A stretch of DNA of 64,000 nucleotides from Planctomycetaceae bacterium (lineage in GTDB: Bacteria > Planctomycetota > Planctomycetia > Planctomycetales > Planctomycetaceae), in contig JABISG010000109.1 of the NCBI GenBank assembly GCA_018699955.1, positions 1 to 64,000 on the forward strand. The letters are read 5' to 3'. The notes beneath the pieces are model-generated. The model saw only the letters and a list, made by a program, of their open reading frames with translations. It was not told the DNA's origin and did not search any database. Shown piece after piece: positions 387 through 4,255 of the stretch (positions are counted from its first letter, which is position 1; the number at the start of each line of letters is the position of its first letter). The translations under genes were made by a program, and so were the position numbers.

Positions 387-650
387 TTATTGATCACCGC
401 GTTTTACCGGCGGTTTGCCATGAGGCTCGACTCGCAATTCCCCGCTCTCCAACGCATCAATTGTCTGCGCGGGAGCGCCCAATCGTTGTGTTTCGAGCCG
501 CATGCGAATGTGGGTATCGTGCAACACGTCGCGGCGAAAACGCTGTCGAGTCACCGCTCGCCTGAGATCCAGATTCCGCTTCTCCAGCGCAATTCCGGCC
601 AACGAAATCAGGACGACCAGTACGAGCGCACTTCCGAACCGGAAATACAT
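387..650 (-). CDS. FtsL-like small bitopic membrane protein
   Basis: An 87-residue protein with a short cytoplasmic start (MYFRFGS), one hydrophobic helix (about residues 6-22) and then a charged, heptad-like helix rich in Arg, Leu and Glu. This is the topology of the divisome protein FtsL, which partners FtsB/FtsQ and activates the FtsI/FtsW pair. FtsL is poorly conserved, so the call rests on topology and on its position just before ftsI. The ATG at 650 is chosen because GAGG lies 8 nt upstream. The same frame stays open further upstream into the LysM gene, so a longer form from a GTG near 734 cannot be excluded. Confidence 0.68.
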   Translation of the reverse strand: MYFRFGSALVLVVLISLAGIALEKRNLDLRRAVTRQRFRRDVLHDTHIRMRLETQRLGAPAQTIDALESGELRVEPHGKPPVKRGDQ

Positions 651-2460: not shown

Positions 2461-3375
2461 TCACAGCCTGATCGCTGCCCGCAGTTTGGCCGTTCTCGAA
2501 CGTGGATTGACCTTCTGCTCCACCGCCGATGCCGTCACGGGTTTTGTCGTTAGGTTTTGCCATCGCTTAACATCCCGAAATGCGTTTTTGACCAGCCGGT
2601 CTTCCAGTGAGTGGAACGATATGACAACCGCTTTCCCGCCGGGGGAAAGGCTCGAAAATAAACCTTCTTGCAGAAACTCTTCGAGATGCTGCAATTCGTC
2701 GTTGACCGCAATCCGTAAGGCTTGAAAGACCCGCGTTGCCGGATTCTTTCGCGCCTGGCTGCGCGCCGCACCAGGTACGGCCTCGCAAACCGCCTGCACC
2801 AATTCGGCGGCAGTCCGTACCGGTGCCTTTGTCCGCTGTTCGGTCAGCCGTTTCGCAATTTGTTTGCTGAACCGCTCTTCTCCCCAGTTGTGGAGAATGT
2901 CGGCCAGTTCGGCTTCGTTGCATTCTTCGATCAGCTTCCATGCCGGCTTGCCCCGCGAAATGTCAAATCGCAAATCGAGTGGACCTTGTGATTCAAAACC
3001 AAATCCCCGGTCATCGTCGGCGAGTTGGTCGGATGACAGTCCCAAATCCAACAGCACACGATCGACCGTCGATAACTCGAGTTTCTCCAGGATTTCGGGC
3101 AGTTCGGCATAACTTGCTTGATGTAATGAACAGTGAGCAACATCGAGCGATTGCGACGCATAACCAAGCATCATCGAGTCGCGATCGAGGCCGATCAGCT
3201 GTCCTGCAGGCGAAATGTGTTTTAATATCTCTTTACTATGTCCAGCCGCGCCGACGGTTCCGTCAACCACCGTCATACCGGGCTGTGCATCCAGGTATCG
3301 AAGCACCTCTCGCAACAGCACCGGTCGATGTAACGGCCCGGCCGTCTCGCCGGAATCCTGCTCGCGGGAGGGCAT
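2461..3375 (-). CDS. rsmH: 16S rRNA (cytosine-1402-N4)-methyltransferase RsmH (MraW)
   Basis: Cytoplasmic SAM-dependent enzyme that methylates N4 of C1402 in 16S rRNA. The 304 residues match the usual family length. Visible marks are the HRPVLLREVL start region, the SAM-binding VVDGTVGAAGHS loop, LLDLGLSSDQLADDDRGFGF in the middle, the VFQALRIAVNDEL and VVISFHSLEDRLVK blocks, and the typical C-terminal NPRSRTAKLRAAIRL. It is the second gene of the dcw series, 369 nt downstream of mraZ. That gap is large for this pair and carries two hairpins. No clear Shine-Dalgarno sequence precedes the ATG at 3375. Confidence 0.97.
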   Translation of the reverse strand: MPSREQDSGETAGPLHRPVLLREVLRYLDAQPGMTVVDGTVGAAGHSKEILKHISPAGQLIGLDRDSMMLGYASQSLDVAHCSLHQASYAELPEILEKLELSTVDRVLLDLGLSSDQLADDDRGFGFESQGPLDLRFDISRGKPAWKLIEECNEAELADILHNWGEERFSKQIAKRLTEQRTKAPVRTAAELVQAVCEAVPGAARSQARKNPATRVFQALRIAVNDELQHLEEFLQEGLFSSLSPGGKAVVISFHSLEDRLVKNAFRDVKRWQNLTTKPVTASAVEQKVNPRSRTAKLRAAIRL

Positions 3376-3640: not shown

Positions 3641-3744
3641 AGACCGCCTTTCAATGTGACACGCCATCCTTGGGTGCCAATTCCGCACAGCCCGGTCAGC
3701 CAGCGGAAGTCTCCATCAAACTCCAGGTCGAATAGTCGTCCTGA

Positions 3745-4188
3745 CTATTCGAATGCTTTTCTTGCCATCTCGTCGAAATCGGCTGTGTGTTTTTCGAGGA
3801 ACTGCTCCCAGGTGGAACTGTCCCAAATCTCGGCGTGGTCGTGTACGCCCAGCAACATCACGTCGCGATCCAATTGGGCGTATTTCTTCAATCGCTCGGG
3901 AATGCGAATCCGCCCCTGCCCATCCATGTCCACCCGCTCGGCACGGGCGTAAAACAACCGCAGAAAGTTCTGAACTTCGGCACGATTCGTCGTTCGTTCG
4001 GCCAAACGCGTCGCCAGCTTCTCGAATGCATCCAGCGAATACAGACCGAGCGAATGCTCTGTTTCGGGAGCAATGTAAAGACAGGTTGCTTCCTCGCCCG
4101 CCACCGCAAATTGCGAGCGCAGTCGCTTGGGAACCGCCAACCGGTGCTTCTCGTCGATCGTTCGTGAGTAGGTTCCCGTCAGTGCCAT
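3745..4188 (-). CDS. mraZ: Transcriptional regulator MraZ
   Basis: AbrB/SpoVT-like DNA-binding protein, first gene of the dcw cluster and a regulator of its own operon. It has 147 residues, the expected size. Two MraZ repeats are visible: GTYSRTIDEKHRLAVPKRLR at the N-terminus, and DGQGRIRIPERLKKYAQL with VMLLGVHDHAEIWD in the second half, containing the paired D-x-x-x/G-R-x-x-I/V-P signature. The ATG at 4188 is downstream of GGGGAAGAG and of a set of TGG boxes that probably form its operator. A sigma70-like promoter lies further upstream. Confidence 0.97.
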   Translation of the reverse strand: MALTGTYSRTIDEKHRLAVPKRLRSQFAVAGEEATCLYIAPETEHSLGLYSLDAFEKLATRLAERTTNRAEVQNFLRLFYARAERVDMDGQGRIRIPERLKKYAQLDRDVMLLGVHDHAEIWDSSTWEQFLEKHTADFDEMARKAFE

Positions 4189-4228
4189 TCATTACCACTC
4201 TTCCCCACTGGTCACCACAAGGCACCAA
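4186..4228 (-). promoter_or_regulatory. MraZ operator: five TGG boxes at exact 10-bp spacing
   Basis: Read on the minus strand, TGG occurs at 4227, 4217, 4207, 4197 and 4188-4186. The first four steps carry TGGT, TGGT, TGGG and TGGT; the last overlaps the start codon with its register shifted by one base at most. The central three are preceded by G (GTGG at 4218-4215, 4208-4205 and 4198-4195). MraZ proteins are known to bind short direct repeats of TGGG/GTGG type spaced about 10 bp apart. The array lies between the predicted transcription start and the mraZ start codon and covers the ribosome binding site, which suits autorepression. Confidence 0.78.
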
Positions 4229-4255
4229 ATTTAACAACCCTGTTCTGATCGTCAA
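4228..4255 (-). promoter_or_regulatory. Predicted sigma70-type promoter of the dcw operon
   Basis: On the minus strand TTGACG (4255-4250) and TAAATT (4233-4228) are separated by 16 bp. Transcription would start near 4221, just before the TGG boxes. This is the best promoter-like sequence seen in the window. Confidence 0.65.

Follow-up and report, generated by a model that had tools for sequence, protein, structure and literature searches.

The mraZ gene of this planctomycete is preceded by an array of TGG boxes in exact 10-bp phase, which, judged from comparison with its relatives, is very probably the MraZ operator of the mraZ operon, i.e., a site of autoregulation. The array was found in the window, the whole 64,000-nucleotide stretch of Planctomycetaceae DNA that was analysed. 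It has at least three repeats with a GTGG/TGGG core at 10 bp, lies downstream of the -10 element at the mraZ promoter and is accompanied by a bona fide MraZ. We infer MraZ binding and repression at this place from the systems of E. coli, Mollicutes, and Burkholderia (PMC8475190, PMC5282649, PMC7761207).

Promoter and TGG array of the mraZ leader

The leader contains the following elements, with counts referring to 64 family leaders:

4250..4255, minus strand: -35 element TTGACG; a TTGAC-like hexamer lies at equal distance in family leaders
4228..4233, minus strand: -10 element TAAATT, extended (TGn); TAAATT is the commonest -10 of the family (22/64)
4225..4227, minus strand: box 1 TGG, unit TTGGTGCCTT; accessory, adjoins the -10 element; TGG kept in 39/64
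4215..4217, minus strand: core box 2 TGG, unit GTGGTGACCA; TGG in 64/64
4205..4207, minus strand: core box 3 TGG, unit GTGGGGAAGA; TGG in 62/64
4195..4197, minus strand: core box 4 TGG, unit GTGGTAATGA; TGG in 60/64
4185..4187, minus strand: fifth TGG in phase, arising from the start ATG and the G of an Ala codon; probably incidental

On the minus strand the full leader reads TTGACG-N16-TAAATT-TGGTGCCTTG-TGGTGACCAG-TGGGGAAGAG-TGGTAATGAA-TGGCACTGAC, with 16 nt between TTGACG (4255-4250) and TAAATT (4233-4228) and five TGGs exactly 10 bp apart (4227, 4217, 4207, 4197, and 4187). The first-pass annotation had placed the promoter and the first four TGGs correctly; the further TGG that it had put at 4188-4186 exists and is in phase, but occupies 4187-4185, while 4188-4186 is the ATG. 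Taken alone, the promoter match is unremarkable (one found in the mraZ leader region vs. 1.1 expected in shuffles), but the promoter is credible because relatives conserve it at a constant spacing to the array. Resampling the leader 100,000 times with a first-order Markov model gave four phased TGGs 5 times and five never. The genome-wide scans were pattern scans only; across the 7.1-Mb genome they found four phased TGGs at mraZ (twice, overlapping) and at a single unrelated place, and the reversed control pattern gave two matches.

Conservation among Planctomycetaceae and other planctomycetes

A protein search of 81 family genomes, the relatives with named records being mostly Planctomycetaceae, yielded 64 canonical mraZ genes whose leaders were read. 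At least three TGGs phased at 10 bp are present in 63 of these leaders and at least four in 41, and each of the other periods tried between 6 and 16 bp gave three or more phased TGGs in at most one leader of the 64, which rules out a repeat period other than 10 bp. The aligned family consensus is TTGGGGCCnn - GTGGKGAnnn - GTGGGGAAAA - GTGGTGA, and its conserved core, which lies a few bp past the -10 element, has three boxes, GTGGKGAnnn-GTGGGGAAAA-GTGGTGA; a fourth, weaker box (box 1) stands next to the -10 element. In 39 of the 63 leaders with a picked promoter, box 2 follows 8-9 nt after the end of the -10 element, most often TAAATT.

Footprinting of planctomycete mraZ leaders, the check that the first-pass annotation had proposed, thus finds the 10-bp period conserved within the family and still discernible phylum-wide. 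Outside the family, 14 of 25 measured planctomycete leaders carry at least three TGGs at 10 bp, in units of the form AAAGTGGKGn, and none of the 25 has an array of at least three TGGs at other periods. A further 20 leaders of other planctomycete families were inspected by eye only. Some distant members of the phylum have no clear array in the leaders measured or inspected by eye.

The regulator, its operon, and co-loss of the array

The operon read from the window comprises these genes:

3745..4188, minus strand: mraZ, 147 aa, DNA-binding repressor; ATG at 4188-4186; TIGR00242 at 104.9 bits, cut-off 98.35
2461..3375, minus strand: rsmH (mraW), 304 aa; TIGR00006 at 281 bits
752..2563, minus strand: gene for a LysM-domain protein (PF01476, two LysM stretches); the true start may lie further downstream
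387..650, minus strand: short membrane/coiled-coil ORF in the ftsL position; 51% identity over 61 aa to its counterpart in the relative L275
1..366, minus strand: 5' portion of an ftsI-like gene for a penicillin-binding protein, truncated at the contig end; shares 40% identity with the L275 transpeptidase over 114 aa

The gene order mraZ-rsmH-LysM-small ORF-PBP is identical in L275, a complete relative, whose transpeptidase matches SpoVD/PBP2 models; the ORF at 387..650 is putatively called FtsL-like from its place and shape only. The mraZ ATG directly follows an in-frame TGA. An eleven-pair hairpin (TCGAATAGTC..GACTATTCGA) at 3728-3752 spans the mraZ stop codon, and after it comes a gap of about 370 nt between mraZ and rsmH. 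The mraZ product exceeds the cut-off of the MraZ equivalog model and has two MraZ domains (two PF02381 matches over cut-off). Both DxxxR motifs, D12..R16 and D89..R93, are present and invariant in 18 relatives, and a sequence search matched the product to the solved MraZ structures 1n0e, 9qlr, 9sx6, and 9qlg.

Canonical mraZ was not found in 17 of the 81 family genomes, 15 of which keep rsmH. In none of the 13 mraZ-less genomes that offer 700 nt of sequence upstream of rsmH did this stretch contain the array, the longest phased run being two TGGs, vs. 63/64 genomes with mraZ (Fisher p = 8e-14, kinship not corrected for). The array is therefore lost where mraZ is absent even though rsmH stays, which indicates that its presence is tied to the regulator, rather than to the promoter or the genes downstream. 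A strict form of the pattern matched 45 times in the 81 genomes, 39 times at mraZ, with two control matches; it is missing from 45 of the 81 genomes, so the sites are degenerate. The six strict matches away from mraZ, compared with the two of the control, at the level of pattern matches made no shared second target apparent as an additional regulon member in these genomes. Two strict MraZ-type arrays off mraZ lie at G044:C410:2872-2894 and G061:C1239:4991-5013, and G044 is a genome without a detected mraZ.

MraZ is a DNA-binding repressor that forms oligomeric rings. Such a ring would bind the 10-bp direct repeats along one face of the DNA, where boxes one helical turn apart could offer sites to adjacent subunits of the same ring. 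The array spans the predicted transcription start region, and MraZ would occupy the DNA between the -10 element and roughly position +35 relative to the predicted start. The MraZ complex would thus block transcription initiation or promoter escape, closing a probable negative feedback loop over mraZ, rsmH, the LysM gene, the ftsL-like ORF, and the ftsI-like gene.

Comparison with known MraZ sites

Eraso et al. in 2014 reportedly described the MraZ operator at the dcw promoter of E. coli, with boxes upstream of mraZ-rsmH. The E. coli mraZ leader, whose sequence we read directly, contains AGTGGGAAAT-TGTGGGGCAA-AGTGGGAATA, i.e., three boxes of the GTGGG type, exactly 10 bp apart and shortly after the -10 element, like the planctomycete core and at a nearly equal distance. 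From this match in sequence and place, we equate boxes 2-4 of the planctomycetes with the three in E. coli, which leaves box 1 as an extra; unlike in E. coli, the planctomycete array often has this fourth box adjoining the -10 element, and the operon lacks ftsZ. The MraZ site of Burkholderia cenocepacia has four repeats of 7 nt, separated by 3-nt spacers, across the transcription start, on a fragment proven by EMSA; it differs from ours in belonging to another phylum, with a leader of about 100 nt and a canonical dcw operon (PMC7761207). With four repeats there (PMC7761207) and at least four in 41/64 family leaders, a number of boxes above the usual three, on which the first-pass annotation had remarked, is not unusual.

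The MraZ sites of Mollicutes are GTG direct repeats, (AAAGTGKN3)3 (PMC5282649), and M. genitalium has a single one, at mraZ (PMC5282649, PMC8475190). The planctomycete repeats share with them the 10-bp direct arrangement and the GTG core, whereas the Planctomycetaceae box GTGGGGAnnA is richer in G; the AAAGTGG units of other members of the phylum come close to AAAGTGK. The fit to the known MraZ target claimed by the first-pass annotation is borne out by direct 10-bp repeats that lie just downstream of the mraZ promoter and are conserved in the family. Our literature search on mraZ, planctomycetes, and dcw returned no title on MraZ sites in planctomycetes. Within the literature searched, novelty lies in the lineage, in the additional box beside the -10 element, and in the co-loss evidence, while the MraZ operator as a kind is already known.

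Start codon, ribosome site, and the translational alternative

Boxes lying over the ribosome site and the start codon could act mainly as a translational or leader-RNA element that controls how mraZ is translated, whether MraZ takes part or not. The ribosome site and the ATG of the window are indeed covered by boxes 3-5, and across the family box 4 reads GGTG[AG] in 18 of 35 close leaders vs. 4 of 29 far ones (p = 0.002). In leaders near the ATG, box 4 often reads GTGGTGA, which contains the Shine-Dalgarno-like GGTGA, and the standard anti-SD GGATCACCTCCTTT was found in the host genome. This is as expected if box 4 of close leaders were a compromise that also serves as ribosome site, a double use that is weak in the window because box 4 reads GTGGTAA there.

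The position of the array argues against this explanation. Box 2 is 29 nt from the ATG, and the ATG hence in phase with the array, in 20 of the 64 genomes, but in 29 of the 64 it lies 45-176 nt from the ATG and yet the array stays beside the -10 element. Far leaders of this sort include L046, L049, L057, and L061, among others. The overlap with start and ribosome site noted in the first-pass annotation thus exists in the window without being conserved, and the translational effect that it had considered possible can hence be no more than a local by-product. The fifth box was rejected as a selected element: ATGG occurs equally often where the start is in phase with the array (15/24) and where it is not (21/40; p = 0.60), and the fifth box is best read as a by-product of the start codon and a common Ala codon. 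As MraZ is, moreover, known to repress by binding DNA, we regard a translational element as improbable.

The MraZ paralogue and its leader

Most family genomes encode a second MraZ-domain protein; the host copy has 160 aa and is 22% identical to MraZ. Two features were located in the host genome:

C49:52688-52743 (L002:1081-1136): palindromes of the paralogue leader
C49:52823-53305 (L002:1216-1698): paralogue gene, 160 aa

Since the paralogue has an MraZ domain and its own leader uses TGGG half-sites, it might bind the array instead of MraZ. However, genomes with the paralogue but without mraZ have no array upstream of rsmH, and the array is present in genomes with mraZ in which no paralogue was detected, e.g., G042. 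As most mraZ-less genomes keep the paralogue and have no array, it cannot be the main ligand, and we consider binding by the paralogue in place of MraZ very unlikely.

The paralogue leader has a highly conserved architecture of its own, with two TGGG-N7-CCCA palindromes (GTGGG-N7-CCCA in the host) 41 or 42 bp apart in 39 of 47 family leaders, the second of which sits between the TTGA -35 and the TAnnnT -10 elements. The double-palindrome pattern occurs in 56 of 81 genomes, mostly once each (control 1/81), and some of its second matches resemble tRNA arms. Between the palindromes most paralogue leaders have a boxA-like GMTCTTTRAMAA, which is missing in the host genome and the neighbouring family f2. 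The rRNA-operon boxA-like sequences TGCTCTTTAACAA / GATCTTTGAAAA are seen in paralogue leaders such as L222, L223, L230, and L248, with no rRNA gene found nearby. An Rfam search of the paralogue leaders returned nothing except one nearby tRNA. Directly 3' of the paralogue gene, L002:1738-1877 holds a long inverted repeat of the GCAAACAGAAGAGAGAGAGCG / CGCTTTCTCTCTTCTGTTTGC type with a loop of about 90 nt.

The simplest guess is that the paralogue regulates itself via the palindromes. We tentatively suggest, as a possibility that is the less probable one, that FtsZ-less Planctomycetaceae may have two MraZ-family repressors using the same TGGG half-site in two geometries, namely a direct-repeat array at the mini-dcw operon, with box 4 doubling as ribosome site in compact leaders, and a double palindrome bound by the lone paralogue at its own promoter.

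G-quadruplex and chance explanations

A G-quadruplex has been proposed at the mraZ promoter of S. aureus, where its formation was reported (PMC11796246), and a switch of this kind could be imagined here, as both species have G-rich tracts shortly after the mraZ promoter and 58 of the 64 family arrays fit a pattern of four GG tracts whose loops do not exceed 9 nt. In contrast to S. aureus, the planctomycete tracts are short, phased at 10 bp, and tied to the presence of mraZ. Four GGG tracts occur in only 6 of the 64 arrays, and the window array has only one GGG run and no set of four GGG tracts with short loops. Neither the strict 10-bp spacing nor the conservation of T and A positions would be required for a quadruplex, and its loss together with mraZ would not be expected while rsmH stays. 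We thus hold a quadruplex switch to be highly improbable, and the G-tract of S. aureus may itself overlap MraZ boxes. Chance or compositional periodicity is practically negligible: TGG is a common trinucleotide and one unrelated fourfold match exists in the genome, but five boxes never arose in the resamplings and 63/64 relatives conserve the array at 10 bp only.

Implications of a probable MraZ circuit without FtsZ

The MraZ autoregulatory circuit is usually read as control of FtsZ-based division. The host genome gave no tubulin/FtsZ match in a search that was positive in 13 of 14 control genomes. The MraZ circuit, including its probable operator, is therefore kept in a lineage represented by a genome without an FtsZ match, on an operon reduced to mraZ-rsmH-lysM-ftsL-like-ftsI-like. 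Its retention without FtsZ argues that the target of MraZ control in these bacteria is not the Z-ring but peptidoglycan or RsmH dosage. This idea can be tested on the genomes that have naturally lost mraZ and with it the operator, while keeping rsmH.
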